From Massospora cicadina (lineage: Eukaryota; Entomophthoromycota; Entomophthoromycetes; Entomophthorales; Entomophthoraceae), in contig JAKSZP010009567.1 of assembly GCA_022478985.1 (NCBI GenBank), positions 27,651 through 91,650 of the forward strand: DNA of 64,000 bases, in the 5' to 3' direction. Shown in pieces: positions 26,606 to 53,389 of this stretch; positions within the stretch are counted from its first letter, which is position 1, and each line of letters begins with the position of its first letter. Both the position numbers and the translations under genes were made by a program. Under the pieces are notes generated by a model, which saw nothing but the letters and a program-made list of their open reading frames with translations, did no database searches and was not told the origin of the DNA.

Positions 26606-26788
26606 TTTTTTTAGTACTAGTGGTGCACAACCCAAAAGGGGGAGCCACCACGCATCTTTATTCACAAATGAGGCAAACAAAGGGATTATCATTAATTGAA
26701 AAAATCCTAATATAGCCCCTAGGTTATCAGCCTAGGAAGCCATATCAGATGGCGAGGAGGCGTTGGGGAAACTTTTGCTCAGCACTCG

Positions 26789-27196
26789 CTAGCTGGCGGA
26801 CCATGGCAGACAGCATTGGGGTGGGAACATCAGTGACATGGGGCATAAGGAGGTATAGTTGGGGTTTTCTTCATTAATGAGGCTGGAAGTGTCCATCGCC
26901 TCAACGTATTGAGCAAGTTGATGCTCAGAAAAACTGATGAGAGCTGGCACACAAGTAAATGTTTTGATGCGCCATTGGGTTTGGGGATAATTGGGGTCAA
27001 AAAGAGAAGTTTTTGCTGCATTGATGCAAGCGCGGCTTGCACCAAAAGCAAGCTCCTCAATTTCATACTTTGCATCTTCCTCATAACCATGAGGAAATTT
27101 GGGGATAGGAATACCCTCAACAAGGAGCTCCATTGACCCATGGAGTTGTTGGTGGAGGAGGGTGTTGGCCGGGGAAGCTGCAGCTGCAACTGCCAT
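26789..27196 (-). CDS. G1(-) ORF2, 135-aa protein of unknown function
   Basis: An intact ORF starts at an ATG in an ACAAAATGGCA context and begins MAVAAAA. It has an Ala-rich N-terminus, an acidic centre (YEEDAKYEIEELAF), and a Cys-containing C-terminus ending PPQCCLPWSAS. The homologous ORF of G1(+) (38011-38418) has the same start, stop and length and differs at about 11 of 135 residues, so the frame has been kept since the copies diverged. No domain or catalytic motif is recognised. It lies after ORF1 in the same direction, separated by a short gap. It could be a separate protein or a former C-terminal part of ORF1. Confidence 0.6.
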   Translation of the reverse strand: MAVAAAASPANTLLHQQLHGSMELLVEGIPIPKFPHGYEEDAKYEIEELAFGASRACINAAKTSLFDPNYPQTQWRIKTFTCVPALISFSEHQLAQYVEAMDTSSLINEENPNYTSLCPMSLMFPPQCCLPWSAS

Positions 27197-27209
27197 TTTG
27201 TTAATATTT

Positions 27210-28441
27210 TATAAATTGGAAACCCATTTTTGGACAAAAATGGTGGGAACGTGATTTGGGAGGGTCAATGAAGAACTGCTCCAAAGCAAAATCAGGTTTC
27301 AAGTGGTACAGCAATTCATCCTCATCAATCCATTTGAGAGCCTCGAATGGATTGGATTAGGCCAGCGCTAGGCCAGCCACAGGAATTGGGGCTGTGGCCA
27401 GAGCTGATTGGCCACATGCTGCAACTATGGCAGCTCAGCTGAAACTGTTTCAGCCATCAACTCAGGATTCTGTAATCCAGTCAAATTTTCAAAATTTTAA
27501 AGTTTCTTAAACTTTGATTGGCCACTGCTTTGGAAGCAGCGCCAGAATTCTCTGACATTGGGGGTGAGAGGATCAAGCCCCATTCAAAAAATTGGGGTGA
27601 GGCAGCCACCAGGGCGGCGCCCAAGCCCTGAGCGTTGGACGCGGCAGAAGTGGCAACCATGGGGCACCTGCGCTTTGAGTGGTCAAACTCAAAGCAGAAG
27701 GGACAAATGGCGTGGCGATTTTCAACATGCGCCCAGAATGGGTGATCAGGGGTGGATCTTATCAAGGTGCAGCGGTGAATCATGAGGTGAAAGTCATATT
27801 GAAATGGGCGGATCATTGCAAAGGCGTGAGGCCCTGCCAAGTGATCCACCCCATTAGGAACCACAAACTGCAACATGAGGTCTGCACCATAAATGGCCAA
27901 ACCCTCCGTGAGCTCGTGGTGGAGGCATTTGGGGGAAAGGAAAGATGGCAACCTGGCGAACTGGACCACCAAAGTGGCCTCATCTGGGAGCTGGGTGAAA
28001 ATGGTGGGTAAAGGATTTTCTTAAAAATTAATTGCAGCTTGGCTGCTGCTGCTGCTTTGGCTTCAGAGTGGAAGCTGAGGTCAAGGTACCCCTTAAAGGG
28101 GCAGAAGTCAATATAGCTGGCGGGTTTGAAAAACTGCCATGGCCATCTTAATGATGGTCGCGCTTGCGTATGGGAAGAGATTCCCATATTTGACCTGGAG
28201 GCTGAAATGCAAATTGCTCCATGGGAGCACCAAAGGGCTCCAGAGCACCGCCTGAGAGCTGGTGAGGTGGTGGCCAAGTCCTGAGGGGGGCATAACGCCT
28301 GGTAGCGTTGGGAGGGCTAGCAGAGCCAGCCTGGGCGCACTTCAGCGGCAGCTGAAAGATGCCAGATGGCAGTGCACCACCACCCCAAGCTGGGCAACAG
28401 GCATTGATTGCATAGACTTTGGTAAGTTTCGGCTTGATCAA
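27210..28441 (-). pseudogene. G1(-) ORF1, Gag-like with CCHC knuckle, frameshifted
   Basis: In minus sense the protein starts around 28441 (KVYAINACCPAW), shifts frame near 28290, continues in VKYGNLFPYASATIIKMA (28293-28108), and shifts again. From 27972 it reads VVQFARLPSFLSPKCLHHEL, a fold like the RNA-binding part of LINE ORF1/Gag proteins, then CPFCFEFDHSKRRC, a complete C-x2-C-x4-H-x4-C knuckle (about 27660-27705). The tail 27560-27480 is Ala/Ser rich. The expected role is RNA packaging in cis. The G1(+) copy at 36776-37648 is less damaged and gives the true frame. Confidence 0.7.
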
Positions 28442-28768
28442 GCGGTTGTTTTTTGTTTTTTATTTTATAAATCTAAATCTGGCTTCAATTTAGGTATTGA
28501 AGTGAAAGATAGATAGATTTTAGTATATATTCTTTGATTTTTATTTTTTTTCAAGGGTGATCTTGATAAATCTTATTTAAACGAGGTAAGCTGAGCAGGG
28601 GATGGACATTACCAAATCTCAAAGAGCAAACAAAATAAATCCTCAATAATTTAATTAAACAACCCACAAAACAAGCAGATGACACACAAGTTATGAACAA
28701 AACCAAACAGGTGGGGCAGGGGAAAACTGCTTATCCCATCATGACAGAAGGGGAGGGGGATCAGGGGG

Positions 28769-29332
28769 CTAATCCTCGGTATTGTCTACACCCCAAAGCA
28801 GAGCATGGGTCACAGCGGAGAGCAAGGGCATCAGGGCATCATTGGGATGCAGAGAGAAATTTCTGATGATTGGGGTGGCAGAAAGACTGCGGTTGACTAT
28901 AAGAGAGACAATATAAGTATTTAAAGCTGTTTCAGATTTCATGCATGCGTCAGGGAGCTTTACAAACGTGGCAAAATTGGTGTGGGTAATCTTGGCTTTG
29001 GGATTCTGCACTATCACTGCCATGTGCTGGAGGGCGTCGTTGGTGGCTTTGTGAGATTTGATCAACATATTCTTTTGGATATTTTTGGCAGTGGAGGGGA
29101 TAATGGGAAGGAGGGATTCCTCCTGTGAGCATTGTCACTAATTTGGCGGCAGCTTTGTGGAGAGGATGACAATCTGGCTTAGCCGTTGCTTCAACAGCCA
29201 GCTGGTGGTTGCTGCAGAACATTTTGTCATTTTCTGGGGGCAAATAAACAAGGGGTAGCTTAGAGTCATGGTAAGCATATATAAACTGCTCAAGTTGGTT
29301 AGTAGGGGTTTCAATAATACACCTGGAATCAT
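28769..29332 (-). pseudogene. G2(-) ORF2
   Basis: Minus-strand pieces 29332-29138, 29243-28950 and 29068-28769 are parts of one protein in shifting frames. The text includes SNHQLAVEATAKPDCHPLHK and, near the end, HPNDALMPLLSAVTHALLWG. Both match G2(+) (SDHQLAVEAAATPDCCPLHK; SPTPLLSALTCTLLQ). There is no recognisable domain. The stop lies just before the 3' untranslated part. Confidence 0.6.
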
Positions 29333-29636
29333 AAATTTCAGCCTCTAGATTTCAAGGATTTTGGTTGAATTGAATTGTGGAATTGGCATATGCCTGAGGT
29401 TTGGTTGGTTCACTGGAGAACGCATGGGAGCAAACTGGGGTCCAAGCCAGTTCTTGATTGGAGGGATCATTTATGGCACTGAGGTAAGGAGGAGGCTGAT
29501 TGGTGGCTGCAGGCGCAGCTGCAGCAACAGGCTTTGGGGGAGGGGAAGGTAGAATTGTACTTCATACTGAAACTGGTGCAGGGTGGGGTGGCGGATTAAA
29601 AGCTGGCGGACAAAAAATCAGAGCTGTTGGAAGCAT

Positions 29637-30400
29637 CTAAGAAAGGGCGCTTACATTTTGAGTGGTCCAACTTGAAACAGGATGGACAGATTGTCTGCCT
29701 GACCTCGACGTAAGCCCAGAATGGATGGTCATGGGCAGAGGGAATGATGGCGTGGGGGGAATTGACAAGGTAATTTTACTAAATTCAGGGCTGATCATGG
29801 AATATGCATGAGGCCCAGCAAGGCGTGTGGCCCCATTTAAGACCACAAATTGTAGGATAGGGTTGGAGCCATGGGCTGCCAAACCGTCCATCAGCTTCTG
29901 GTGGAGCACTTCAGGAGGGAGGTGGGTGGGCAAACCAGCGAACTGGACCACAAAAGTGGTATCCTCTGGGAGCTGGGTCCAAATTGTGGGGAGAGGGGTA
30001 CCCTGGAAAACCAGGGCACAGTTGCCGCAGTGGCAGCGTTGGCTTCACAGGTGGAGCTAGGGTCAAAATACCCATTATAGAGGCAGAAATCAATAAAACT
30101 AAAGGGAATCATCACCGCCTGAGCCATTTTGATAATGGCTTGGTCATGGTAAGGGAAAAGTTTCCCATATTGAACCTAAGGTCAAAACGCATGTTGCTCC
30201 AGGGGAGCATCAGGGGGCAATGAGGCACCGCTTGGGTATGAGTGAAGTGGGCGTCAAGATCCTTGGGAGGAACTAATCATTCCAGAGGTTTGGTATGACT
30301 GGGCGAGTCAGTCCAAGCATTTTTTCCCGCTGGAAAGAAAATGGTGGGGAGTTTTGCCGCTGCCTCATACTGGAGCAGCCAGCGGGGAATCCAAGTACAT
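29637..30400 (-). pseudogene. G2(-) ORF1, Gag-like
   Basis: The frame 29951-29637 gives VQFAGLPTHLPPEVLHQKL and LQFVVLNGATRLAGPHAYSMI, corresponding to the segment before the knuckle in G1. In another frame at about 29650-29710 the knuckle reads CPSCFKLDHSKCKR, in which the last Cys is displaced. The N-terminal part (30400-29960) is in broken frames (AQAVMIPFSFIDFCLYNGYFD). It is a decayed copy of the same protein as 47218-47674. Confidence 0.65.
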
Positions 30401-30498
30401 TGGAGCAAAACTAAAGTGGGTGATCAAAATTTACTTTCTTTGTTTTCCATAAAATTTGCTAGGAAAGGTATGCTGAGCAGAAAAAGATGATCTCCATA

Positions 30499-31139
30499 TA
30501 ATATAAAACTAATGGTACATATTTTTATATATTTTTCTATAAGTTTATATCTTTATTATTTGTTATATGTTTTTCTATGAGTTCCATTACTTAAAAAATT
30601 TGCTATGAACCTAATTCACTATATGACCATTGAAGATGTTTTTCATTGTATATGCATCTGTTGTTGACTTGGTGATAATTTCAATTGGGCCTGACCATAG
30701 GGCATCCAACTTGTTTCTTCTTACTATTTGTGGGTATCACAATAGGATATCCTATCCCCCACATGGTATTCCTAGAGTAAAAGTTAATTTCATTTATCTT
30801 GCTTCTTTTTCTTATTTCTTCTTTTTCAACGTTGTATTAAATGTCTGTGATTGAAATTTTATCATGATGTTTTCCAGCCAAGGTAAATGTTGCTCTGAAC
30901 TCATCCCTGAAGTGGTTCTAATGCTAAATATAAATTCAGTGGAAGTGAGGCTCTTTGTCCATATAAGAATTTGAATAGTATTTTCCCTGTTGCTGTATAA
31001 CTGAGATTGTACGCTAATGTAACTGAACCCAAATAAGATTAACAATCAGAGGTTTTCCCTGCTACCAAATTTCTCAGTATCCTAGCCAGAGTTCTGTTGA
31101 ATCTCTACCATTTTATTTGTTTCTGGATGGTATGAGATG
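30499..31139 (-). pseudogene. F2 integrase C-terminal half
   Basis: Read from right to left, the minus strand gives PSHTIQKQIKW near 31110, NRTLARILRNLVAGKTS near 31030-31090, and AYNLSYTATGKILFKFLYG near 30950-31010. This is the end of a gypsy integrase core (element A: LAMTLRKLVAGRTSSWG and TYNISHHMAMGKTPF). The catalytic Glu position reads Gln here. 30499-30640 is A+T rich without a clear frame. The N-terminal half is at 43931-44349, on the other side of element H. Confidence 0.7.
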
Positions 31140-31144
31140 GACAA

Positions 31145-32356
31145 TGTGGCAGATAAGGCCATAAACATTTTAACAGATCATTACTCGCCAGGGGAATGAG
31201 TAGAGATAGCCCTAAAACAGTAAAGATACAGGTGACCAACCCACCAAAGATGGAGGCAAATGATCCCCTTTTATAGATTTGGGTAAGCAAAGGAATCTTC
31301 ATCAATTTTGGGATGATATCAAGCGAAATAAACCTTCAACCTAACGAGTCAGAAGATTTAGTATGTGAAGATGACAAAGTTAGTGGGATTCATTATTAAA
31401 ATTGACCCTTTTATATATACCTTTTGGGGGCCAAATAATTTGCATTCCGTCAATGATGCTATAATGAGCAGATTAAATTACCTCAATGAGAGCGTTCAAG
31501 GCTTAACTTATATTACAAATTGGGCAACCACCAATTTCAAAAGTTGCTTAAAACCACAATGGAAGGCGCATCATAGGAGCTTCATCTTTTAAACCTGATG
31601 TCAACCAGAGTACTACCAAATTTAATAATTAATCAATATTATAAGATGATAATTTGACCAACAACCAGAAGTGGGGACTATTGAAAGGGCCCCTTGACAT
31701 CAAGGCTCATGGATAATCAACATAAGAAGGATCTTGTGACTAAAGAAAATGGTTTAAATGGATGAGGCCACTAAAGCAGCAAAAAGATGGCATCTAACTA
31801 GAGGATTCTGAAATTTTCCATATCAAAACAAATTAACTCAATTATCTTGCAATTTTTCATTTAAAATTCATATCACTTAAATTATAAAATACTTCTCTTT
31901 TTATCTTAGTATAAAACTTTCCAAAGGATCTCAGTGTTATTTGTTTACTTTCACCTATAGTTGTTTAAGTATGCCAATCACCAGTAACCAGTATAGATTA
32001 ACCAAATATACAAAATACAGTAACCAGTCTGAGATCTTCTCAGTTTGGATAAAGACACTCTCTATATTGGATATCATGGAGCTGAGCTGCCAAAGAAGTG
32101 GTTGGATTGGCTATTGATTCCTGGGTGCCAACATACAATTAATATGTCTAAGAGTGTCAACAAGAAATTCGCCATGGGTGTGAACAGGTTACCAAAGTGA
32201 ATAATGCTACAAGAGGTAGAAAAATGGAGAGTTTACCCTATGAAGCTGATTGTAACCTTAATGAAGGTTGTCTGGTGCCTAATCTGCATGTAGTAGACCC
32301 CCTGAGCAGAGATTCAGTCATATATGTTGATTGAGCTGAGGAAAGTGAGATAAGTG
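31145..32356 (+). repeat. 5' LTR of H, 1212 bp
   Basis: It begins TGTGGCAGATAAGG and ends directly before the primer-binding site. Its central part aligns well with 42717-43925, for example in the TACAGGTGACCAACCCAC block and the GCGCATCATAGGAGCTTCAT block. Confidence 0.8.
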
Positions 32357-32375
32357 TGGTGCTCACTACATGGGT
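32357..32375 (+). other. Primer-binding site of H
   Basis: TGGTGCTCACTACATGGGT abuts the 5' LTR. Confidence 0.8.
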
Positions 32376-34010
32376 GGCATCATCAGGCCCTAGTGATGAT
32401 CATGAGAGTTCTTAAGAGAAGTTCAAGGATGAAGCGGATATCAAAGTGTATAATGGAGAATGGATTCCTCTGAGCTCCTGGTGAAGGAGGAGGATACAAT
32501 TTGTTTAAGACTCCATACTCTGGAATTAGAAGTGCATGATCTATGCAATGATTTTGAGAATGTCAAGGAGACCTCCAGAAGAGCACAAATTGCCTCATTA
32601 CCTATTGTGAGAGGACCATCACCAAATTATAAAACTGGAATCTAAGCTTAATAATTTTGAGGAGAGACTTGTTTTCCTTGAAGAAGAGAACGGCAAAAAT
32701 CATCACCACTTTGAATGAATATGGAGATTGCTGGAACAGCATGACAATATGCTGTTTGATATGGACAAGAGTATATAAATTTGAAGGCAAAAATGCATAT
32801 TATACCAGAACCTACCTCTACTTGACTTATAACCTGATTGGAGGCACCCATCTGGGTCACTCAACAGATTGTACCACAACTGGTCAGAACTGCTAATCAA
32901 TTGACCATTATGCAAGCTGATCCTGTTGAATAGGATCCCAACTTTGAGCCTTTCATTAAGACCATGTAAACACCTGAAGAAAGAATGATTGGGGGTTTCT
33001 CCAGTGTATGAGAACAGCATGGATTGTGCTAGAAATCGCCAGAAGGCCCACCACAAGTAAGGGTTTATGAGCCGCAAAGCTCAGGAGATCCTTAGCTTGA
33101 GCCTATGACCTGGACTATCTTGGACTAAAGTGAAGAATATTCTCCTTTTGAGAGTTCAGTAGTAAACAAGACGTCTAAAATATGAAAAAAGAGTTCCTAC
33201 TGATGAAAATGGGCAAGAATGAGTCAGTTACAATTTATGCCTCTCACTACTACTTTAAAGCTACCAGTTATGGACTAGAGGAACTAAGGTTTGCCTATCT
33301 TGAAAACCGTTTTGCTGATCTCAGTGGAGATGCATCCTAATTTGAAGGTGCATATGACTCTAGTGGTTAAGAAAGCAATGTCTTTAAAGGCACTTAAGTA
33401 AGCTTTACTTGATATACAAGGGATATATAAAGATGAATATAAGGAAATGGGACCAACACCTACCCCTCAACGAGCTTACAAGTCCGTTTATGTTGCCAAC
33501 AATAAGGGTGACAAACTAAAGTTAAAAGTTCTAAACTTCTAAACACTTGCCTCTTCAAGAGATCACCTGCAATAAGTGTCAACCTGTTCACTTCTACCAA
33601 TCCTTTCCGCTACTAATTATGAAGGAGAAGGAAACAGCCCTTAAAGAGGATACCCTTAACGCTATCAAATGGGTGAATCTACACACTGATGGTGAAGGTG
33701 ACCATGAAGATGACAAATTGGCTAGCTTAGGATACCATGTGTTAGGGGCATCTAGTGCGGTGGCTGTGACTGCTAAATTAGGAGTCCACAGCACTAATGG
33801 ATCTACACTGAGTGATACCTATTTGTAGCAAGAAAACCAGACTACCCAGGTCATAGATTCAGTTGAAGAGGTAGAGCAGTTAATTATGGCTAGTTATAAA
33901 ATTTGGCAATAAATGGCGAGGATCCTTTCAAGGATAATATGAGCACTGCTACTCTTAGACAGTCTGAGGAATCTGATACTGGCGTGCTGACCACTGGAAA
34001 CCATTTCAGC
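32376..34010 (+). pseudogene. H gag, decayed
   Basis: The order is as in other gypsy gags: a charged, coiled-coil-like N-terminus (32460-32645, with EEDTICLRLHTLELEVHDL), a capsid region (about 33110-33450) in broken frames, and a degenerate knuckle at about 33560-33605 (CNKCQPVHFYQSF, where the last Cys is lost). The acidic tail follows at 33620-33830. Multiple stops exclude a functional protein. Weak similarity to D and K gag fits the similar LTRs. Confidence 0.6.
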
Positions 34011-35045
34011 AAGAATGTGACAAAAGTGTAAGTAATCATTAAGAGATGCGCGTTTTGGCAGTATTGGACACTGAGGCCTAAGTTAAAATCATCACATCTA
34101 AACTCATAAAGAAACTGAATTTTATATATTTAATATTAATTACAATATGAAGTACCACACTACATGACCCAACATTACCTGTGCTTTAGGAGCTTATTCC
34201 GCATTATCCTTGCACTATGGTCGCATGATCCTGATGGCATTGGCGGTGGTTTTGGACAATAAGCACTACACTTTTTTGATCTTAACACAGCTTCTCTTGG
34301 AGTTTAAATGAAGGTTAATTTTACCACTAGCACTATAAGTATTTTGAGCTTCCAACTTTCGTGTTGTTTAGGGACAAAGATATCAAACTGCAGAAACAAT
34401 GTATGATTTTGGTTGAAATGGAACAACCAAATACCTCAAACCTACACCCAGACTGTGAAAAGTGTAAAGCAGCTAGCACTCACTGTTAGTGCAGAGGAAG
34501 GGCTTCCTCTGAGAGCTAGAGAAACCATAGACATTTGATAAGGGGATTAATGCAGGATGATCATGTCGTTTAGTGTGAATATTCCATTTAATACCATATT
34601 GGAAGTATACAGCCATGACGGAATCTGCAAGCAAGAACCAAGAGTACTATTAGGATTCTATGACACCACCCACTCTGTAGAGTTGAACATCGTTACAAGG
34701 AACATTACTACCCAACCTATCCAATTTGAAAAAACACAAGTTTTTGCACTGGCCCAACTATTTCATTGCCAGTAGATTGAATCTCTCCATGCAGTAGGGG
34801 ATTTAACGAGCTTGGGTTTAGAGATGTGACCCTTAAACAGAAAAAGGATCTCAATAAACTACTGGTTGAGTTAAGTGACATCTTAATTACTGGCTCCATC
34901 ATTATGGATTATGCAAGGGCGAGGTCCAAAAAATGGATACAGTTTACGCTGTATTATTCAAATATAAAGCCACTGCCGCTCAAAAGCAGAAAATGCAGTT
35001 ATCATGCAAGAGCTCAACCAATTGAACAAATCAGGGCCAATTAGA
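34011..35045 (+). pseudogene. H protease and linker, decayed
   Basis: Near 34050-34110 the plus strand reads LAVLDTEA followed by VKIITSKLIKKLNF, a retropepsin active site in which DTGA has become DTEA. The GAYSALSLHYG-like segment lies at 34185-34220. 34300-35045 is the linker to RT. An open stretch 34557-34775 belongs to the fold seen in A at 55670-55850. Confidence 0.6.
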
Positions 35046-35714
35046 CCTTCAAAAGCCCGCAGGCATCTCCTTTGTTGCTGGTGCGCAAAAAAATGGAACC
35101 CATAGAGTAGTCATAGACTACCGCTGCCTAAATGATGTACCTGAGAAGGATTCATACCCGCTACCATGCATTGATGATGCTTTGAAACTCTGGAGTTTCT
35201 CAAAATACTTTTCAGCAATGGATCTTGCCAGCGGCTACTGTAAGGTAGAGCTCTCTCCAGAAGATAAGGAGAAGTGCGCCCTGATCTGTAGTCAGGTGTT
35301 GAGCTCACAAGGATGCCACAGGGGCTCTGCAATACCCCTACTACATTCCAGCGCATGATGGATTAGAAGGATTCATTGCTCTTAAGCTATCACCTGTGTT
35401 AATATATCTTTAAGACGTTATTGTCTTCATCCAGACATTACAAAAGAATGCAGAATTTTCAGGAGGTCTTTATGCAGCTGCGCGTCTAAACTAAAGTTGA
35501 AACAAAGCAAGTGTACCTTCCTCAAGAGACATCTAGAGTTTCTGGGGCATGAAATTAGCCCAAGTGGAATCGAGCCTCAAGACAGGCAGTTGAACGCCAT
35601 TGTGGCTATGGAGCCACCAAGAGCATGAAGGATATCCAAGTGTTCCTTGGAATGGTGGGATACTATTGAAAGTAAATCCCTCATTTCGTGGATTTGGTGG
35701 CGCCCCACACATAC
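35046..35714 (+). pseudogene. H reverse transcriptase, decayed
   Basis: RT motifs in order: SPLLLVRKKNGTHRVVIDYR (35070-35130), YPLPCIDDALKLW, FSAMDLASGYCKVELSPEDK (35210-35270, with the first catalytic Asp), a frameshift, then VLIYL-stop-DV near 35395-35420 where YLDD should stand, and LEFLGHEISPSGIEP (35530-35575). The catalytic box is interrupted by a stop codon. LTR I is inserted after the SKCSLEWWDTI-like segment. Confidence 0.75.
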
Positions 35715-36775
35715 TGTCATGGAACCTGCTGATTGGAGTAAGATTGGTCTTTAGTCTGGGTGTGTAATAACCCAGTGGAAAGCTCAGAATCCCCAATAGC
35801 ATAGCAGTTCTGATTACTTGTAGGAGGAACGCCCTATGATTTTTGTGAGAGAAATAAAAATTTAAGAACATACCAAAGTCCCTCATGGAAAACCTTATGG
35901 CTGCAATGGGGGCAACCGCAGGTCTTTCAGGGGCATATCCCAAGGGTGGGAGAGGCAAGAAGGAAGACCAATCTCCTAGGTTTGCAGTTGGTGACCTTTA
36001 GGATCAGTTTCCAGTTTTCTGGTTCAATTTCATCAGAAATAAGTATTCTGAGGATCACTAACCTTTTTAAATTTTTGAAAATGCTGATTGGGTTCATAAA
36101 TCAAATTAAATCAACGTGATTCAAACGTTGGGAGGCCTTAAGATTTGCCTTTTACCGGTTGAGGGTTTTTGTGATGACTTTAAGGGTTGGGAACGTTACC
36201 AGAGCGGCGAATCAAATTTATTAAGTTATTTGAGATGGAATGGCCTGTGGAGAGAGGGCCCAGATAATCTGGTGCCTGGTTACTGACTTGCAGTTGCAAG
36301 GATAGCTGTTCCTCACCACAAATGGTGAATTGTGATTAGCGGAGAAAGCCTCATTTCACCCAAATTGCACCAAACTACTGGTAGATTAGCTGGGCGAATT
36401 AGTCTAAATTCTCTTACTATCTTAAACAAGGGAGATGGACCTGTAGTTTTTCTGCCATGTGCTGATAGAGGAGAAGATTTTTGCGAAGATTTTGGCATAT
36501 TTGAAAGCCCTTCAGGAGTGGCAGATTGAGGTAGCATGTCCATGGTGAAATCTTTGATCATTGTGATCACCATTTAGTGTGCCAATAGATTGATGGCTTG
36601 GAGGGCCCACTTAATGACCATTGTTTCTAAAACGCAAATCACGGCGTACTTTGTTGGGTTAAAAAAGTATATTGAAAAAAGGCGGAGTCAATCTTTTTTT
36701 CACTTTGATACCCAGATTGAATCAAAATTCAGATTTTAAAAAAATACAAAAAACAACTGCTCACTCAACCCATAA

Positions 36776-37648
36776 CTTACCAATGTTAATGCAATTGACA
36801 CATGCTGCCCCAGCTTGGGGTATGATACGCTAACATCTGGCGTCTTTTGGCTGCCATTAAAGCGCGCCTGGGATGGCTCTGCTATCCCTCTCAATGCTAC
36901 CAGGAATTATGTCCCCCCTCAGGACTTGGCCTACCACCTCGCAAGCTCTCAGGCAGTGCTCTGGAGCCCTTTGGTGCTCCCATGGAGAAATTTGTGTTTT
37001 GGCCTCTGGGTCAAATATGGGAATCTATTCCCATATGCAAGCTCAGCCATCATTGAGATGGCTATGGCAGTTTTCAACCCTGTTGGCTTTATCAACTTCC
37101 ACCCCTTTAAGGGGTACTTTGACCTCAGCTTCTGCTTAGAAGCCAACGCAGTGGCAGCAGCCAAGCTTCAATTGATTTACATAAAAATTCCGCTTCCCAC
37201 CATTCGCACCTGGCTCTCAGACAAGGCCACTTTGGTGGTCCAGTTTGTTGGGTTGCCCTCTTTCCTTTCCCCCAAGCGCCTCTTCCATAAGCTCACGGAG
37301 GGCTTAGCTGTTTATAATGCAGACCCTGTGTTGCAGTTTGAGGTTTCCAATGGGGCAGATTGGTTGGCAGGGCCTCACGCCTTTGCAATGATCCACCCAC
37401 ATCATCATGACTCTCACCTTGCAATTCCCCCCCCCCGCACTGTGATCAGATCCACCCCTGATCACCCATTCTGGGTGTGCATCAAAAACGGCCACGCCAT
37501 TTGTCCCTTGTGCTTTGAGCTTGACCACTCAAAGCGCAAGTGCCCTACAGTTGCTGCTTCCACCACATCCACCGCTCAGGTCTCGTGCGCCACCCTGGTG
37601 GCTAACTTACCCCAATTTTTGAATGGGGCTCAATCCTCCTGCCCTTAA
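36776..37648 (+). CDS. G1(+) ORF1, Gag-like protein with CCHC knuckle (start lost)
   Basis: The reading frame is open from 36776 (after a TAA at 36773) to the stop at 37646-37648, about 290 codons. G1(-) has a Lys codon where this TAA lies, so the start was upstream. Residues about 140-220 (LVVQFVGLPSFLSPKRLFHK, then LQFEVSNGADWLAGPHAFAM) resemble the RNA-binding domain of Gag/LINE-ORF1-type proteins. Then follows CPLCFELDHSKRKC, a perfect C-x2-C-x4-H-x4-C knuckle (about 37500-37545). The expected role is binding and packaging of the element RNA. The frame after 37648 (to 37908) continues in another register and may have been the C-terminus. Confidence 0.65.
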   Translation, partial: LTNVNAIDTCCPSLGYDTLTSGVFWLPLKRAWDGSAIPLNATRNYVPPQDLAYHLASSQAVLWSPLVLPWRNLCFGLWVKYGNLFPYASSAIIEMAMAVFNPVGFINFHPFKGYFDLSFCLEANAVAAAKLQLIYIKIPLPTIRTWLSDKATLVVQFVGLPSFLSPKRLFHKLTEGLAVYNADPVLQFEVSNGADWLAGPHAFAMIHPHHHDSHLAIPPPRTVIRSTPDHPFWVCIKNGHAICPLCFELDHSKRKCPTVAASTTSTAQVSCATLVANLPQFLNGAQSSCP

Positions 37649-38010
37649 TGTTGGGGAATTCTGGTGCTGCTTCCAAAGCGGTGGCCAATCAAAATTTAAA
37701 AAAAAGTAAAACTTTTGTAAATTTGACCAGATTATGGAATCCTGAGTCAATGGCTGAACCACTTTCAGATGAGCTGCCATGGTCAAAAGCACATGGCCAA
37801 TCAGCTCTGGCCAAAGCCCCAATTCCTGTGGCTGTCCCAGCGCTAGCTGAATCCAATCCATTTGAGGCTCTCAAATGGATGATGAGGATGAATGGCTGTA
37901 CCACTTGAAACCTGATTTTGCTTTGGAGCAGTTCTTCATTGACCCTCCCAAATCACGTTCCCACCATTTTTGTCCAAAAATGGGTTTCCAAATTATAAAA
38001 TATTAACAAA

Positions 38011-38418
38011 ATGGCAGTTGCAGCTGCAGCTGCCCCAGCCAACACCCTACTCCGCCAGCAACTCCATGGGGCAATGGAGCCCCTTGTTGAGGGTATTCCT
38101 ATCCCCAATTTTCCTCATAATTTTGAGGAAGATGCGAAGTACAAAATCGAGGAGCTTGCTTTTGGTGTGAGCCACACTTGTATCAATGCAGCAAAAACTT
38201 CTCTTTTCGACCCCAATTATCCCCAAACCCAATGGCGCATCAAAACATTTACTTGTGTGCCAGCTCTCATCAGTTTTTCTGAGCATCAACTTGCTCAATA
38301 TGTTGAGGCGATGGACACTTCCAGCCTCATTAATGAAGAAAACCCCAACTATACCTCCTTATGCCCCATGTCACTGATGTTCCCACCCCAATGCTGTCTG
38401 CCATGGTCCGCCAGCTAA
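38011..38418 (+). CDS. G1(+) ORF2, 135-aa protein of unknown function
   Basis: Intact ORF with ATG in an ACAAAATGGCA context, identical in length to the ORF at 26789-27196. The C-terminal half (DPNYPQTQWRIKTFTCVPAL to PPQCCLPWSAS) is unchanged between copies; nearly all differences lie in the first 60 residues. The region from SLCPMS to the end is kept in frame in both copies. No known domain, signal peptide or membrane segment is seen. Confidence 0.6.
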   Translation: MAVAAAAAPANTLLRQQLHGAMEPLVEGIPIPNFPHNFEEDAKYKIEELAFGVSHTCINAAKTSLFDPNYPQTQWRIKTFTCVPALISFSEHQLAQYVEAMDTSSLINEENPNYTSLCPMSLMFPPQCCLPWSAS

Positions 38419-39375
38419 AGCGGGCGCCAAACAAAAGTTTCCCCAAAGCCTCCCCGCCATCTGATATGGCTTCCTAGGCTGCTAACCTAGGGGCTATATT
38501 AGGATTTTTTCAATTAATGATAATCCCTTTGTTTGCCTCATTTGTGAATAAAGATGCGTGGTGGCTCCCCTTTTTTGGGGCACCACTAGTACTAAAAAGG
38601 TGGAGTCCATGAAATAGGTTTTACAAAAATGATCAGTTTTATAAAATGAAGGAGGAAAATGAACTGCAACTGCCACTTTCAGAGGCAGTTGTCTTAAAAA
38701 CTAGGTGGTAGGGAAAGGGGATCACGGGTTATCCTAGACAGTAGAGGCTGACATGCTCGCAGGTAAACATCTTGGGCTTGGGAGTTTTCAGCTAGCTTAT
38801 GCACTAGGTCATAGAAGCTCTGGCAATTTTATTTATGATCCAAAATGTGAACCCTCACAGGTCCAATCTTGGCAGCTTTGCTCAGATAATAAGGGCGAAA
38901 TTGGATTCCATTGGAGTTAATTTTGACAAACTTTAAAAAAATTAAATTTTTTTTAAACAGATTATCAGCTTGGATCAGCATTCTGGAACCCAGATTTTTT
39001 TGGTCTAATGTTCTAATATTTTTCTTAGCTCATGAGAAATTTCTTGAGTTTCAAGATCGATTTTCTCCATTTCCAGAGAAGTGAGGGATGGCGGGGTGGA
39101 GGCCAAGGGAGGGAGGAGATGCTGCTGGTGGCCTCTGGCCTGGATTACCCTAACTACAATTCTCCTTTATCTTGTCAACAAGGGAAGGAGCAACCAAGAA
39201 GACGCTGGGGAGGGATTTTTGAGGCCAATGCTGTTAACCAACGTTCATCAACAACTTGGGCCAAGCCCCCCAGTGAGCCAAGGGCCCCACAGGGGGCTTA
39301 GGTCCCCTCTCTCTTTATATAAGGAAACTTGTCCTGTTCCAACCCAAGAGGTTGAGTCTCTATACTTACACATAC

Positions 39376-40876: not shown

Positions 40877-42200
40877 TGTTGGAACTGATGCTAGGGCCTT
40901 GTATCTCAGTTTCACAAGTTACACACACATGCAACAAATAGCTACAATTTGAGGACAGTGACCTTGACCAAAAATTAACAAAAACCTAATATAATGAAAT
41001 ATGGTTTTTTTTAGAAATGAAAGAGCACACTGTAATATTGAATACTTCCAGGGCTCATGGGGTACTAAAGTGATTCTTTTGGATATGCTTTTCACAGCTT
41101 ACTTAGGAAAAAGATCACCTTGCAACTGACAATCCTCTTCAGATATTCTCATTCTACCAGTATTCTCATTGGTGCTTTCACTAGTTACCAAGCAGCACTA
41201 CAAGCTTAGTAGACTAAAATGGTTATATCCTAATTGGACCAAAGAAGCGAAAACTAAGGTTCAGAGAATTTACTGGAAAAGATGTAATCCACTGAATTAG
41301 TTTATTATTGAAGGGTGGCCCTGATAAATAATAACGACCCAATTACTGATGTTTTATGCTGGCACAGGGCAATTTAGAATAAATATGACAAAATAAGTTA
41401 GAAAGTGATAAACAAATGAAGACCACAGTGTTATATAGTTGACTGGACCATAATTGTCAAGTAGATTAAATATAAAAGATAATAAAATTAGCTTATGTCT
41501 AACTTATTATATTCTATGTTAAAAACTAAGCGATTAAGGATTAAAAATACACTAAGTACAAACAGAACTTAGTATTTGTGGCCTAGAAGTTCCACTTAAT
41601 CATATCTGACTTGATAATCCAGGAATGGGGCTTTTTTGTCAAGTCAAAATTAGTTTTTAATGTCAATCAAGTTACAATCAAATTAATTACTAAACAGTGG
41701 CACAAAATGTCTTGGTATATGCTACTATTGCTTGAAAGGAGCAATGGTTTAGCCATTATCAGATGCGTCAGAGGAAACGCTGTCTCAAAATAATTTTGTT
41801 GATAAGACACTGTCCATGAGGCTAATATGGGTTACAGTGGTATGCCTAATAGTTTTTTGACCCTCTAAAGACCTTCATTATGAACCTCTAGTTAATTGGC
41901 GATGTGAGGCGACGTGTCACGGGTAAAGGTAGGGAAACATCAAGCCCTATAAATTCTCTAACATTAGATAAATAAAAAGCAATCTTTAAGCGGAATACTC
42001 TTTTGGTAGTTTGCAATATAAAAGCTTTTTACTGTTAATACATTTCCATTATATAAAGTCAGTAAATTATTTGTGATCAGGAAGATCAGGGAAGGAAGCC
42101 ATTGTACAAGTAAATCAATAGTAGAATACAGCCTTTAGCCTTATCTTTAAGGAATTCATATTCTAAGAACTATCGCCATCTAGCCTATTGTCCTCATACA
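40877..42200. mobile_element. Probable LTR J, about 1.32 kb
   Basis: The block separates the core and C-terminal domain of the H integrase. It starts TGTTGGAACTGATGC and ends CCTCATACA. TAGGC precedes it (40872-40876) and TAGGC follows one base after it (42202-42206), so a TSD is likely but imperfect. It contains only short ORFs and A+T-rich DNA. The orientation is not clear, and part could be decayed H sequence. Confidence 0.4.
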
Positions 42201-42716
42201 GTAGGCGTTCATAGCTCCTACTTTAATCACAGACAAAGATCAAGACATCTGAAGTATGCCAAAACTTCAACAAACAGCATCAGCAGCTGATAGATTTGGT
42301 TAACAAGAGATGAGCCGGTGGGGAGTTAGAGATTTGATTAATAGTAAGGTAATACTTTAGGCCACTACATATATCTCTAAGATTGCATGGCTTAGAAACT
42401 AAAGTACTAAATAAATCCATATCTAATTACTAGATAAAGTATGAAATTAAATATAAACAAGTATCATGTCCATATGGTTGATCAAACCAATTACAACATA
42501 GGCTTTCAGAGTTTAGCCTGGGGTAAAAGTATTTGTTTTATCACCTGTGGATAACATAACCTGAGAAATTAATACCATATGGACTGGTCCTGTTACTGTA
42601 TTAACGAAAAGAGGATATGAATACTCTTTCCAGGACAATGATACTAACATCAAGTTTGGTAGAGTAAATGCCCGGCATCTCAGATAATTCACCAGGTCTC
42701 ATATTGGAAGGTCAAG
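42201..42716 (+). pseudogene. H integrase C-terminal domain and 3' tail
   Basis: At about 42570-42680 the plus strand reads WTGPVTVLTKRGYEYSFQ, then FGRVNARHLR, the GPY/F-type C-terminal module of gypsy integrases. The equivalent in element A is LWSGPFKVIAKTAIDAYSI. 42210-42480 upstream is without clear frame. A purine-rich GGAAGGTCAAG precedes the 3' LTR. Confidence 0.65.
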
Positions 42717-43925
42717 TGTCAAAGATGAAATTGCAAACGGTCAACATATCATTCAGCTCCCAGTGGAATGAGTTGAAATACTTCCCAAACTGTTGGAGGT
42801 ACAGGTGACCAACCCACTATGGATGGGAACAAATGAGCCCCTTTTATAGATTTAAGTGAGAAAAGGAATTTTCAACAATGTTGGGATGGCATCATATACA
42901 AACTTTCACTCTAACGAGTTAGAGGATTAAGTATATGAAGATGACAAAGTTGGTGGAATTCATTATTAAAATTGACCACCTTATATACCTTTTGGGGGCC
43001 AATTGATTTTCATTCTGCCAATAATGCTATAATGAGCAGATTAAATTACCCTAATGAGAGCGTTCAAGGCTTAAATTATACTATAAATTGGACAATTATC
43101 CAAAATCAAGAGTTTCTTAAAACCTCAAGGAAGGCGCATCATAGGAGCTTCATCTTTTAAACCTGATGTCAACCAGAGTACTACCAAATTTAAAAAAATC
43201 AATATTATAAGATGATACTTTGCCCAACACCCAGAAGTGGGACTAGTGAAAGGGCCCCTCAGCATCAAGGTACATGGATAATCACCATGAGAAGGATCTT
43301 GAAACTAAAGAATTTGGCCCAAATGGATGAGGCCACTAAAGCAGCAAATAGCTGGTCTAACTAGGGAATCTTGAAAATCCCCATATCAAAACCCATAAAC
43401 CCAATTATTTTATAATTTTTTTTTATTTTTATAACTTGAATTATCCCTTGAAGTATAAAATACTTCTCTTTTTATCTTAATAAAAAACTTATATACAGAA
43501 CCTCAGTTCTATCCTTATACTTTCACTTATAGTTGTTTAATTGAGCTAATCACCAGTAAACAGTCTGGGATTAACCAAATATACAGAATACAGTAACCAG
43601 TCTGATATCTGCTCTATCTGGATGAAGAAATTCTCTATCACGGATACCTTGGAGCTGAGCTGCTAAATTAGAAGTTGTATTTTTTTGTTGAGTCCTGAGG
43701 TCCATCATAAAATTATTATGTTTAAGAGAGTCAACAAGAGATTTTTCATGGGCTAAAATAGTTTACCAAAGTGACTGATGCTACAAGGTGTAGCATCAGG
43801 AGAATTTTCTCTATGAGGATGGTTGTGATTTTAGAAAAGTGTCTGGTGACTAATCTGCATGGAGTATGCCCCTGAGCAGCAAGTTGGCCTCACATGTTAA
43901 GCAATCTGAGGTCAGTGAGTAGAAT
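42717..43925 (+). repeat. 3' LTR of H, 1209 bp
   Basis: It starts TGTCAAAGATG and ends before the TSD copy GACAC. It aligns to 31145-32356 over its length, with many single-base differences and small indels, so H is not recent. Confidence 0.8.
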
Positions 43926-43930
43926 GACAC

Positions 43931-44349
43931 CAACATGGATTCCCATTGATTTTTTCAGGCTTGGGATCACATAGGAGGTAAAATTGGATCCTTTGTCGCT
44001 CAATGAAACTTATGGGCATCCATGCCAGTACACTACTTAGTCCAGTATAAATCTCTTGGTGCTTGTTGCATTTATCCTGCTCAAGGACTTGGTCTTGACC
44101 CATCTGGTTAGATGGTCTATTGCAACTATAATGTACTTTACTTCCCCAGTACTAACACTAAAAAGTCTTATCACATCTATTGACACCATGTTCCATGCAA
44201 ACCCAGGGCGTACTTGCCAATATCCTGTCACAATCTTGTGGGCTTGTTGAGTTAACACTTTACGCAACAGGCTAGTTAATTTAAAACAATTTAATTGATT
44301 GGTTCTCAGTAGACTGGTGTAGATGATCCATTGTTTTTCTTAGGCCACC
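43931..44349 (-). pseudogene. F2 integrase core, N-terminal half
   Basis: Read from right to left: YWQVRPGFAWNMVSIDVIRL (first catalytic Asp, 44220-44165), KYIIVAIDHLTRWVKTKSLS (about 44150-44085) and VVYWHGCP-like text around 44010-44035. The frame 44267-44037 is open for 76 codons. Element A has SIDVMGPLA and KYIIVAINHLTRWVKMKALT here. The rest of the core is at 30499-31139 beyond element H. Confidence 0.8.
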
Positions 44350-45290
44350 TGTCAGAAAATTAACCAGATGGATCCCTTCAATAATTATAATTATTTGGGA
44401 TGAAATAGGCCGATCCCATTGGAATGGCTTATCAACTGAATTTCGTATGGTTTAATGATTGCATGGTGAGTTGCTCTTCAAATTGAGTTGAGCCAAATCT
44501 GTATTTCGCTGAGTTAGGATGTTAGGATTGGTGAGGCTAATTGATGGCCCTAAATTAGTATTTAATCACTGGCAACTAGTAGCTGATGATGATCTATTTA
44601 TATTTATTTAAGTAATGTCAGCAGAAACTTCTGATCTCAAGTTTGAGGTGGCCAAGGTTTTCCCACCGCCTCATATTTTTTAATCAAATATTTCCTGAAA
44701 AAGGCGATTCCCTAATTGATTGACTAGGAGAGTCAAAAATGTGTTATTAGTGAGAAGCAAGCTATTCTGAGAACCCAAGCGACTGAAGCTGTTTCTGAAG
44801 CACAATTACTAAGGTGAATCCACATTCATTATTAATTTATATTTAATAATTATTCAGCTCACCAGCAACTGAATGCTGAGGATGAGCAGAAACTAATGTT
44901 TGTTCATTGGGAAGGATGGGGTGAGAGTATCAACGCCAGTAAGAGAGTAAGCGCAGCACAAGAGAGAGAATGGTTGGCTGGAAGGTCCAGCATTGAGCTG
45001 ATAGGCCAGCAATGGGCGCAGTAGCCCTTTTGTACATATAGATACCCAGAACTTCCCTTTCAATAAAGATCTCCCTTTTCCTAATCTATAATTTATTATA
45101 AGTCATGTTTATTCTTGTGGGTTGGGTTTAGGCTGGGGGATCCCTGAATGGCACGGGTGACACGTCAAGGGGTCAGCTGGCACTGCTGATCCTGCTGCCT
45201 AAGGCGAAATGGCAAGGGCTGACCAGTCCTCATACTGGTTGGCCTGCCAACTAGCAAATCCACTGTCGCTGGAAAAGCGATTTTCTGACA
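44350..45290 (+). mobile_element. B1: solo LTR of family B, 941 bp
   Basis: It has perfect 10-bp inverted ends, TGTCAGAAAA and TTTTCTGACA. The flanks CCACC (44345-44349) and CCACT (45291-45295) are a TSD with one change. The F2 integrase text is continuous across it. A TATA-like region and AATAAA lie near 45040-45065. The second copy is B2 at 47858-48861. No B coding region is found. Confidence 0.8.
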
Positions 45291-45295
45291 CCACT

Positions 45296-45388
45296 ATGCC
45301 CTACACCTTTGTGCGCAGCTTGTATAATTGCTGAGCGTTCCAAAGATTTGGGAAAAAGTATCCTTTCTGTCAATTTATTTATAAAGCT
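45296..45388 (-). pseudogene. F2 integrase N-terminal fragment
   Basis: A short stretch matches F1 around 19700-19800 (ATGCCCTA...CTTTGTGCGCA and the following bases), where the integrase N-terminal region is encoded on the minus strand. It continues the gene from 44349 across B1. Confidence 0.6.
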
Positions 45389-45820
45389 AGTAGTGAAATA
45401 CCTATGCTTTGCTAAGGTGTTTATAACTTGCCAGATGATCCTAAATAGATTTAGTATTTATATTGGTAGATATTCATCAATAAGTTTATAAATCATTAAA
45501 CCTATCAAATATTTTCCAATCTCCAACCACTTAACCAAAATCAGTTAAGCCTACCAAATTAACTAAACCATTAATCAAATACATGAAATTACTGAACCCA
45601 TCCAATCAGCCAAAAAATGAACTGCTACTCAAAAAAACCAATTGTTGAATTACAAAACAGTCAAAGGCTACCAATCACTTATCAAAACCTATAAAATCTA
45701 TTAAATTAAACAAATATGAAAATTCTCAGCCAAATTTCTATATAATTACAATTAGAAAAATATAATTTTTAGATTGTATATAAAAACTGATATTAAAATT
45801 CATATGATTTTATTAGAAAA

Positions 45821-45941
45821 GCGGTATTTACACGGCGTTGCTAGGGTTTATAAATAATACCGCACTGACATAGCCTATAGGCTGTGCCAGCGCTACTCTC
45901 AAGCCACTTGGACTAACAGCTTCGCTGTTGCCCTTGTGGCT
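45821..45941. other. Cluster of three inverted repeats
   Basis: GCGGTATT (45821-45828) pairs with AATACCGC (45856-45863). AGCCTATAGGCT (45872-45883) is a perfect 12-bp palindrome. AGCCAC/GTGGCT (45902-45907 and 45936-45941) encloses AACAGC/GCTGTT (45915-45920 and 45924-45929) with loop TTC. These GC-containing stems stand out against the A+T-rich surround. Confidence 0.6.
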
Positions 45942-46178
45942 GGTGAGCTGATTATCCTAACTTTATTTAATCTACTTAAAACTTGAACACTAATTTTAAT
46001 TAGTTTTGGGTGAGCAATTTGGTGAATTATTTAATAATAATCGCCAATTCTCACCTACTCACCCAAATAGATTGAACCTATTACATTTGATAGTTTTAGA
46101 TTCAATATTAATTGCCAATAATCACTCACCTAATTTGATTGAACCTATCAGACTTGAAGGTTTCAGATGTCGTTCAGT

Positions 46179-46210
46179 CAGTACATCAGTACATCAGTAC
46201 ATCAGTGAAT
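46179..46210. repeat. Tandem repeat CAGTACAT, three units plus one variant
   Basis: Three perfect 8-bp units followed by CAGTGAAT, near the right end of the unclassified insertion. Confidence 0.85.
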
Positions 46211-46226
46211 GTGTTTGTTAAGTAGA

Positions 46227-46746
46227 TCCCTTTTTTATTCAGCATTTCCCATCATCTTCTTCAGAGCGCTTTGAATCTCCTGGAATTCATCACCAATATC
46301 TCCTTCAATCATTTGGTGAAATCATTATCAGATTGCTGATATACAACTTGAACATCAGGTAATCTTAATAATCCATCAGCGTTTTGAAGGGCTGATATTG
46401 CTCTGTGTATAATCTCAAAACCTAAGGATTGCAGCTTCAGAGCCTAAGGGAGAGTTGCTCCTCTGGTTATTTAAGATTATGCAACCAGCGTAGATATAAA
46501 TGGCTTTTCATAACATCAAAGTATATCATATGAATATACTTTCAAAAAAATTTTCAGGCGTATATCACTATGAAGCATTTGCACTCCATCAAGGTGTGGT
46601 ACCAGTCCACTGGTTTCAATGTCTAACTCACATAAGCCACAAGATGCTCCTCCCCGTCATCATCTACTCTACTTAAAACAGCTCTGATCACCATCAATGA
46701 GGCATCCATCTTAATAAAAATGGCCAATTAAAATCTGTGTGCTTTA
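46227..46746 (-). pseudogene. F2 RNase H, decayed
   Basis: The minus strand aligns with F1 at 19840-20290 (for example at the ATAATCTCCTGG/GAATCTCCTGG block and the GCAACCAGCGTAGA block that encodes LRWLHNL). Several stops. The last 17 bases (46730-46746) are the left TSD of G2(+). Confidence 0.6.
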
Positions 46747-46878
46747 CTCTCTCTCTGCTTGGCGTAGCTTTCTAAGCAAATTGTTTTTAGTAAATTAAAA
46801 GCAAACACTTAATCACACACCAAAGTCTTGCTCCATTGTTGTCAGATCCCCTGCTGACTGTCCCAGCATGGGGCAGCG

Positions 46879-47674
46879 GTGAAACTCCCCCCTCCATTTT
46901 CTGTCCAACAGGAAAACGCGCTCAGACTGGCTCACCCAGTCAATCCAAACCCTTGGGATGATTCGTTCCTCCCAAGGATCTTGATGCCTATCTCGCCTAA
47001 ACCCAAGCAGTGCCCCGCTGCCCCCTGGTGCTCCCCCAGAGCAACATGCATTTTAGCCTTAGGGTCAATATGGGAAATTCTTCCCCTACAATGACCAAGG
47101 CATAATCAAAATGGCTCAGGTGGTGATGACACCAGCCTGTTTTATTGACTTCCACCCCTATAAAGGTAGTTTGATCTTGGCTTCCCCTATGAAGCTGATG
47201 CAGCCACTGCGGCAACTGTGCCATTAATTTTCAACAATATTCCCCTCCTAACAACTTGGACTCAGCTCCCAACGGACACCACCTTGGTGGTCAAGTTCGC
47301 GGGTTTGCCCACCCACCTCCCCCAAAGTGCTCTACCAGGAGCTGATGGAAGCTTTGGCAGCCTATGGCTCCAACCCCATCTTACAATTTGTGGTCCCAAA
47401 TGGGGCCACATGCCTCGCTGGGCCTCAGGTGTATGCCACAATCAGCCCTGAATTTATGAAAATTTCTTTGGCAATTCCCCCTCATGCCACCATCCCATCT
47501 GCCCCTGACCATCCATTCTGGGCCCGCGTTGAGGGCGGATGGACGATCTGTCCATCCTGTTTTGAGTTAGACCACTCAAAACATAAATGCCCATACTCAG
47601 AAACTTCCGCCAACGCCAAAAGTTTGCCCAACGCCCACCAATCTGCTGCCCACCCCGCGCCAACTCTGACATGA
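46879..47674 (+). pseudogene. G2(+) ORF1, Gag-like with CCHC knuckle
   Basis: Pieces in shifting frames: 46879-47094 (HPVNPNPWDDSF), 47218-47320 (TTLVVKFAGLPTHLPQ) and an open 115-codon stretch 47327-47674. The last contains LQFVVPNGATCLAGPQVYAT, then CPSCFELDHSKHKC, a complete C-x2-C-x4-H-x4-C knuckle (about 47545-47590), and a Ser/Ala/Pro tail ending at 47674. At least one frameshift lies near 47320. The protein is the same type as 36776-37648. Confidence 0.7.
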
Positions 47675-47857
47675 GGTATAATCCTACCTTCCCCTCCTCC
47701 AATGCCTGATGCTGCAGCTGCACCTACAGCCACAAATCAGCACTCACCCTGCCCCAATGCCACAAATAATTCATCCAACCAAACATCAGATTGAATCCCA
47801 GTTTGATTCCATGCATCCACAAACAAATTGAACAAACCTCAACTGTATGCTGATTCC

Positions 47858-48861
47858 CTGTCAGAATTTTAACCAGATGGAATCCTCCAATGATTTAGCA
47901 ATATTTGGAATGATATAGTTAATCCCAGCGGAATGGTTTATTAACTGAATTTTGTGTTATTTAGTTTAATTGCTGGTTAGTTGCTCCACAATTTGGGTTG
48001 AGCCAAAATTAGTATTCCGCCAAGTTTGGTATTTAGGTTCGCATGGGGCCAATCAGTGGCCCCAAATTAGTATAAGTATCACTGATGACTAATAGCTGAG
48101 GATAATCCAATCTGTCAGCAGAATCAGTAGCTGATGCCAATGGCCATTAATGGTCCATTGTGGGATTTCTGGTGGAAAGCTGATGTATTGCTTCAGATGT
48201 TTGCTGCCTGTACTGATCCGATGTTGATGGATCCAAAAATTATGAGTTGAGGCGGCTGAGGTTGTTTCCAGTGCCTCATTTATTATCAAGATAAGGCGAG
48301 AATAGATGTCAGTGAGATGCTGAGATATTCTGAGTCAAAAGCGAGCAACCAAAATAGTTTCTGGTGCATTAATATCAATATAAAGGTCAAAACCAAATTT
48401 GACGTTTATTTAGATTATTTATTTATATGGTTCACTGGTGACTTAAGGCTGAGGATGAACCGAAACTAATTAGGACATTGGGAAGGATGGAGCGAGAGGG
48501 TCGACGCCAGGGAAGAAATAATGTAAATAGAGAAGAAGAAGAAGTGGTTGGCTGGAAGAACCAGTGGAAGAGCTGATAGGTCAGCGATGGGTGCAGTACC
48601 CTTTTGTAAATAGTATAAATACCTGGCGCTTCCCTTTCAATAAATATCTCCTGTTGCCTAGTCTACCTTTTGTTATAAGCTTATATTTATCTTGTTGGTT
48701 GTAGTTTAGGTCAAAGGGGATCCCCAAAATGGCGTGGGTGACACGCCAAGGAGTTAGCTGGCGCTGTTAGCCTTGACGCCTAAGGCAAAATGGCAAGGGC
48801 TGACCAGTCTTCATACTGGTTAGACTGCCAACTAGCAGAGCCCAAAGTTGATTTTCCGACA
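47858..48861 (+). mobile_element. B2: solo LTR of family B, 1004 bp
   Basis: It runs TGTCAGAATTTT to GATTTTCCGACA between perfect TTCCC repeats (47853-47857 and 48862-48866). TATA-like AGTATAAATACC and AATAAA lie near 48615-48648. It interrupts G2(+) between ORF1 and ORF2, so it is younger than G2(+). Confidence 0.85.
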
Positions 48862-49517
48862 TTCCCCCATTCAATTCAACCAAAATCCATTGGAATTAAT
48901 GGATGAAATTGACAAATCAGGTAACATCATTGAAGAACTGACACTGCAACTCGAGAGGCTCTGTAACGCAGAATGGGATGCAAAATTCCCACCTCAAAAA
49001 TATGTCCCACAACCTAACGCTAAACCGTTCTACAGCGACCACCAGCTTGCAGTAGAAGCAGCTGCCACACCAGATTGCTGTCCGCTTCACAAAGCTGCCA
49101 CCAAATCTGTGGCTGCGCTCACAGAAGGAATTCACTTCCCGTTATCCCCATAAATCTTACTGCACAAAGTAAGATCAACATGAAAACTTTACACAATAAC
49201 GTCACTGAAGCCATCCAGAACGTGGTAAAAGTAGCAAGAATCTGAAAGCAAAAATCACCCAAACCAACATTGCCACATTCATTAAATTCTCAGACACCCG
49301 CCTCAAAGCTGAAGATGCTTTGGGCAAGTACATCGTTGGTATAATGATGGCTGGCAACTATTTGGAAGTTCCAGTCATCAAGGATATCAAACCCCATGCC
49401 ACCGATTCCCCCACACCCTTACTATCTGCCTTAACATGCACCCTACTCCAGAATGAGATGGATGCGGCCAAAGATGAGCCCCCTGATCCCCCCTCCCCAT
49501 CCACCATGGAGGGATAG
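48848..49517 (+). pseudogene. G2(+) ORF2
   Basis: Two open pieces, 48848-49153 and 49320-49517, with a frameshifted gap between. The first includes IIEELTLQLERLCNAEWD and SDHQLAVEAAATPDCCPLHK; the second SPTPLLSALTCTLLQ and a Pro/Asp/Glu-rich end. It matches G2(-) 28769-29332. No domain is recognised. The first ~15 codons overlap the B2 end, so the true start lies upstream of B2 or was lost. Confidence 0.6.
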
Positions 49518-49689
49518 CAGTATTCGCTGCTCACCTGGTTGGATATTTTGTTAGGTACAATTCAATTGATCCATCCATTTTGGGCGTTTTGTTTGAACCG
49601 TTATTTTTTTATTATGATTTTAGTTTTAGTTTGGTAATGTCCATCCCCTGGTTGGCTTACCTTGGTTAAATAAAAATCCGTGTGCTTTA

Positions 49690-53386: not shown

Positions 53387-53389
53387 AGT

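Follow-up and report, generated by a model that had tools for sequence, protein, structure and literature searches.

Two families of 1.9-kb protein-coding retroelements without reverse transcriptase in Massospora cicadina, related to LINE ORF1 and probably mobilised in trans

Element copies in the window and their insertion sites

The window, a stretch of 64,000 nucleotides from contig JAKSZP010009567.1, is part of the 1.47-Gb genome assembly of M. cicadina, and comparison of the window with itself revealed two families of elements of about 1.9 kb, designated A and B. Copy A1 (nt 26606–28518, minus strand, 1913 bp) was flanked by a perfect 17-bp target site duplication (TSD), AAAGAATATATACTAAA, and contained two ORF pieces on the minus strand, one with a LINE-ORF1-like region and a CCHC motif (nt 27484–28020) and one encoding a C-terminal half (nt 26792–27208), the ORF2 of the original prediction. 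Copy A2 (nt 36690–38593, plus strand, 1904 bp), with a 14-bp TSD containing one mismatch, possessed an open stretch of 290 codons for the N half, with LINE-ORF1 homology and the CCHC motif (nt 36776–37645, plus strand), and a piece for the C-terminal half (nt 37999–38415, plus strand). Copy B1 (nt 28569–30482, minus strand, 1914 bp) contained a piece for the C-terminal half (nt 28772–29134, minus strand) and a tail (nt 28576–28615) matching LINE tails. Copy B2 (nt 46747–49672, plus strand), flanked by a 17-bp TSD with one mismatch (nt 46730–46746 and 49673–49689), was split by a solo LTR of 1003 bp (nt 47859–48861, plus strand) lying between two TTCCC; subtraction of the 1,003-bp LTR and the 5-bp repeat TTCCC gave a length of 1918 bp. 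The 3' tail of B2 (nt 49631–49672, plus strand) was common to a 5.2-kb RT-bearing LINE family. These are the four copies originally predicted as one family, with the same lengths except that about 1917 bp had been given for B2, and with the predicted A-rich 3' ends; the elements are real, although they fall into family A (A1 and A2) and family B (B1 and B2).

Other repeats were observed in the window. In B1 (nt 28569–30482) and B2 (from nt 46747), the 5' end (CTGCTCAGCATACC in B1) was similar to the element's own 3' tail (CTGCTCAGCTTACC). A diverged relative of the solo LTR, 75–76% identical in pieces, was located at about nt 44348–45256. The orf at nt 55025–55564 showed an aspartyl-protease match (PF09668, E 1.4e-7) and, being part of a repeat common to nt 19375–22511 and 49693–51862, is a remnant of an LTR retrotransposon. 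Three further related repeats, at nt 1–1859, 52213–53388 and 59889–61772, shared 81–90% identity with one another.

Genome searches with the copies, as proposed along with the original prediction, yielded many full-length A and B copies among the best-scored candidates. With A1, 36 of 41 rows were essentially full length (query and A2 included; best 40 of 12,965 candidates scored), and these full-length rows were 84–87% identical, the query itself aside; with B1, both ends were reached in 22 of 42 rows (best 40 of 14,036 candidates scored). The protein stretch of A2 gave at least 140 matches (best 140 of 86,551 candidates scored), and nine loci taken from them, mostly for their long open frames, were all A elements with both ends reached or nearly so, one of them (L063) interrupted. 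The A 3' tail pattern occurred at 6,134 places with up to two mismatches (backward control, 0), a number that includes truncated copies, one such tail of 47 bp having been read.

Among 22 A copies the repeat-to-repeat length was 1894–1927 bp (median 1912), single values being approximate since a longer or different repeat was chosen by the script in a few rows (L024, L027). The flanking repeats were predicted to be TSDs, and this was borne out: 21 of the 22 A copies had own flank pairs scoring at least 10 (only L025 fell below), a score reached by 1 of 462 mismatched pairs, and an empty site exists for B2, the joined flanks of which align through nt ~20111–20516 (plus strand), a relative of its target repeat, with one target copy and no insert. 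The A TSDs were mostly 13–19 bp long. Among 17 TSDs compared, the first base was a purine in all and the second base was A in 16. The range of 14–17 bp predicted for all four window copies applies to A1, A2 and B2, whereas at B1 inspection by eye showed no more than a degenerate repeat, with about 9 of 11 bases matching. Thus, both marks of target-primed reverse transcription expected of a HAL1-like element, TSDs and an A-rich 3' end, were found. Non-autonomous LTR elements (LARD, TRIM) were rejected as candidates, since no long terminal repeats appeared in the self-comparison and the TSDs were mostly 13–19 bp instead of 4–6 bp.

A single ORF under purifying selection

In the alignment of 22 A copies, one frame lacked a majority stop from position 511 to 1807, another was open from about 113 to beyond 511, and the final stop at 1807 was common to 22/22. 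Near position 512 there is a T/A run, the longer form of which, present in seven copies including A2 and L027, joins both parts in one frame, while in the other 15 the run is short by one or two bases and the parts are out of frame. ORF1 and ORF2, predicted as two ORFs, are therefore best regarded as two portions of a single ancestral ORF of ~565 codons. The layout of L027 was a 94-base 5'UTR, one 565-codon ORF (566 codons with the final stop, three premature stops included) and a 121-base 3'UTR. Two observations led to the longer form being regarded as ancestral: B2, by eye, continues in that frame, and selection was detected on both sides of the run. It is also possible that many A copies descend from sources with a broken ORF, as the 15 frameshifted copies would suggest, and this makes an absolute requirement for the protein in cis less likely. 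Across 10 copies of family B, the 192 codons of the C-half frame included 7 stops, the other frames having 91 and 162.

Selection was assessed in 35 copies, with possible CpG-decay sites excluded and the interrupted L063 left out. Changes private to one copy had an N/S of 636/162 (3.93), whereas those found in three or more copies had an N/S of 259/156 (1.66; p = 1.8e-10 versus private). The shift was seen in the N half (p = 1.4e-5) as well as in the C half (p = 1.8e-6), while other frames gave p values of 0.39 to 0.89, except for one reverse frame sharing third positions (6.8e-6). The ORF frame is thus under purifying selection in both halves, and the lower N/S in shared changes indicates that the protein mattered while the lineages were active, the later decay being neutral-like.

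The predicted Gag-like protein with a CCHC knuckle was upheld as to the motif, C-x2-C-x4-H-x4-C, which was recognised by eye, but the Pfam zinc-knuckle match was sub-threshold for A1 (E 0.19) and none was obtained for A2. Pfam searches with the element's pieces up to E 10 returned sub-threshold matches only, and no Pfam family matched the second half. A search of solved structures with the N half of A2 only gave six matches (best E 0.32), taken as chance. AlphaFold2 on window sequences produced no usable model (pLDDT 31.9 and 38.9), and an RRM seemingly visible by eye is accordingly not claimed. Comparison of the C half between A and B, with eight more B copies added, gave a profile score of 59.5 versus a maximum of 19.6 in 60 shuffles; with three B rows only, the score was not significant (19.5 versus a shuffle maximum of 20.5). 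Judged from these profiles, the C half is common to A and B.

Relation to RT-bearing LINEs and their 3' tails

A LINE of the same genome (L068, with L069) encodes an ORF1 with a CCHC motif, an endonuclease-like region and a reverse transcriptase (RVT_1, 1.9e-38), with a weak zf-RVT match below cut-off; a PF14529 search gave three weak endonuclease matches. Both ends lying ~5.2 kb apart and a 16-bp TSD were found in two of three LINE copies checked, and no TSD was recognised by eye at copy C5849. The N half of A2 matched the ORF1 of the L068 LINE (BLASTP E = 4e-6, one comparison), and profiles of the N half and of LINE ORF1 aligned with an hhalign probability of 93.6 and a score of 55.0, as compared to a maximum of 22.1 in 60 shuffles and 15.4 for the reversed profile. 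By this sequence evidence, the N half, although only ~24% identical, is homologous to LINE ORF1, so that homology to LINE ORF1 as in HAL1-like elements was found for this half only. No match was obtained between the C half and the LINE ORF1 and ORF2 parts tested; when it was compared with four LINE ORF1 C parts, one narrowly exceeded its 15 shuffles (16.8 versus 15.8, over two aligned columns). In tblastn searches at E 1e-6, the LINE endonuclease, reverse transcriptase and C part had no match inside any A copy read or anywhere in the window, in agreement with the predicted absence of reverse transcriptase and with a HAL1-like element, which has neither enzyme.

Longer RT-bearing relatives with the same 3' terminus, proposed in the original prediction as something to look for, were found for B and not for A. 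The last ~42 bases of the LINE in L065 match B2 at 93%, and the B tail was present beyond the ORF at 14 of 14 LINE ends fetched, one with a variant core, these ends being drawn from the best 150 of 66,151 candidate relatives of the L065 LINE C-terminus. Genome-wide, the LINE ORF2-end motif followed by the B tail core occurred at 5,594 places (backward control, 0), whereas the same motif followed by the A core occurred at none; a second pattern for a LINE with the A tail had two matches, both A-like by their letters. The exact 14-base A core used here is present in about 15 of 22 A copies (by eye), and thus a rare, divergent or differently spaced LINE with the A tail could be missed. A second LINE type (L068, L070–L073, L088, L089) carried a related tail. 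Opposite-orientation B tails were also seen near LINE 3' ends (L072, nt 457–496; L073, nt 285–324), within ~30 bp in L073.

Across 27 tails from LINEs and B copies, two pairs of a stem were changed on both sides, with a covariation of 0.232 versus 0.112 (0 of 500 shuffles); the count of pairs changed on both sides was no higher than in shuffles, and the innermost pair failed in 16 of 26. The hairpin of the A tail across copies was not significant (alifold -6.5 versus -3.7, sd 2.15), and single tails of B1, B2 and L065 folded no better than shuffles (z -0.54, -0.77 and 0.03). At contig C14823 (L065, nt 2111–2189; L090, nt 45–60), one 16-bp target is present three times without change, flanking a 5.2-kb LINE and an A tail of 47 bp, as if two insertions had used one site; this single case hints at an endonuclease shared by the LINE and A.

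Mode of mobilisation and comparison with known systems

Taken together, A and B are probably non-autonomous non-LTR retroelements of the HAL1/HeT-A kind, with an added protein half and mobilised in trans. In this reading, each encodes one protein, composed of a LINE-ORF1-like half with the CCHC motif and a second half for which no LINE origin was detected, and selection on the ORF suggests that the RNA on which this protein acts is probably its own. The endonuclease and reverse transcriptase of a LINE would then be used in trans, and the RNA would be inserted by target-primed reverse transcription. Since its tail is common to the abundant 5.2-kb LINE, B would most likely be recruited through this tail, and it is most likely a satellite that copied the tail of that LINE. 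A looks like a sister of B with another tail; its enzymes may come from the same LINE, with the A-rich end and bound protein as the means of recruitment, or from a LINE lost or missed. Thus, the predicted HAL1-like, trans-mobilised family was supported as regards elements that are RT-less, protein-coding, LINE-ORF1-related and TSD-flanked, with the B tail on an RT-bearing LINE; the second half and the A tail, found on no LINE, depart from it, and trans mobilisation presumably applies.

Could the elements instead be large SINE-like passengers, their RNAs copied by LINE machinery through the tail or A-run alone and the protein having no role? A 3' tail common to a LINE, as in SINE/LINE pairs (PMC3747384), was found for B only, and the frameshift in 15 of 22 A copies would also agree with this; purifying selection on both ORF halves among shared changes and the retention of one long frame by both families nevertheless make it unlikely. 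The non-coding, small-RNA-derived head of a SINE was likewise not seen, the ORF being under selection and no Rfam match occurring in the window at the gathering threshold.

Derivation by internal deletion from present RT-bearing LINEs, without a history of their own, would account for the B tail and for an N half related to LINE ORF1. It is highly improbable, however, because DNA identity between B and its LINE is confined to the last ~40 bp, with differing 5' ends (by eye), the N half is so distant from LINE ORF1, and nothing corresponding to the C half was found in the parts of LINEs that were tested; as far as tested, no RT-bearing element was found from which A or B could come by internal deletion. 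TSDs, A-rich ends and lack of RT are also features of processed pseudogenes, but retrocopies of a host gene family made by LINE machinery would hardly keep their ends conserved, leave tails by the thousand, show homology of mobile-element type to LINE ORF1 or, in B, carry a LINE tail, and such an origin can be given very little credence. Trans-mobilised elements with a protein of their own are the preferred reading. More tentatively, A and B might both descend from an ancient lineage encoding ORF1 alone, to which a second protein half was added. By acquiring or exchanging 3' tails, this lineage would have persisted beyond the loss of individual LINE hosts, B now having the tail of the abundant LINE and A, whose tail was found on no LINE, recruiting the LINE enzyme mainly via its own protein.

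HAL1 (half-L1) of mammals is non-autonomous, encodes only an ORF1-type protein and is mobilised in trans by LINEs (PMC5753468, PMC4161310). A and B also encode an ORF1-type protein without RT and are presumably mobilised likewise, but their protein, only distantly related in sequence to LINE ORF1, has a second half that was not found there, and B has a specific 3' tail in common with its LINE. As far as known, they are not HAL1 by descent, the mode of working being HAL1-like. Drosophila HeT-A is a Gag-only non-LTR element without pol, its gag is under negative selection, and TART or TAHRE is believed to supply its RT (PMC5537684); A and B similarly are Gag-like-coding, lack RT and have an ORF under purifying selection. 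HeT-A adds to chromosome ends, whereas A and B lie at interior sites with TSDs, and chromosome-end addition without TSD was accordingly rejected for them.

SINE/LINE pairs share the 3' end of the partner LINE, with a terminal stem, and include Tad1-clade pairs in fungi; the SINEs described there are tRNA-derived and non-coding (PMC3747384), unlike A and B with their ORF of ~565 codons. EKA genes of barley powdery mildew, present in very many genomic copies from LINE ORF1 alone (PMC4641428), resemble A and B in being LINE-ORF1-derived at high copy number without remaining LINE parts, but are described in that source as parts of degenerate, truncated LINE copies, whereas A and B are complete with their own ends. 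No fungal ORF1-only LINE family was found in the literature searched, which is weak evidence given partial journal coverage. A 1.9-kb Gag-like-coding element that probably borrows a LINE enzyme indicates that the HAL1/HeT-A way of life seems to have arisen here too. As an independent case of high-copy, RT-less, Gag-like-coding LINE satellites, A and B can be compared with HAL1 and HeT-A, and they raise the questions of why a LINE parasite keeps a protein under selection and whether the enzyme is recruited by an RNA tail, as is likely for B, or by a protein, as may hold for A.
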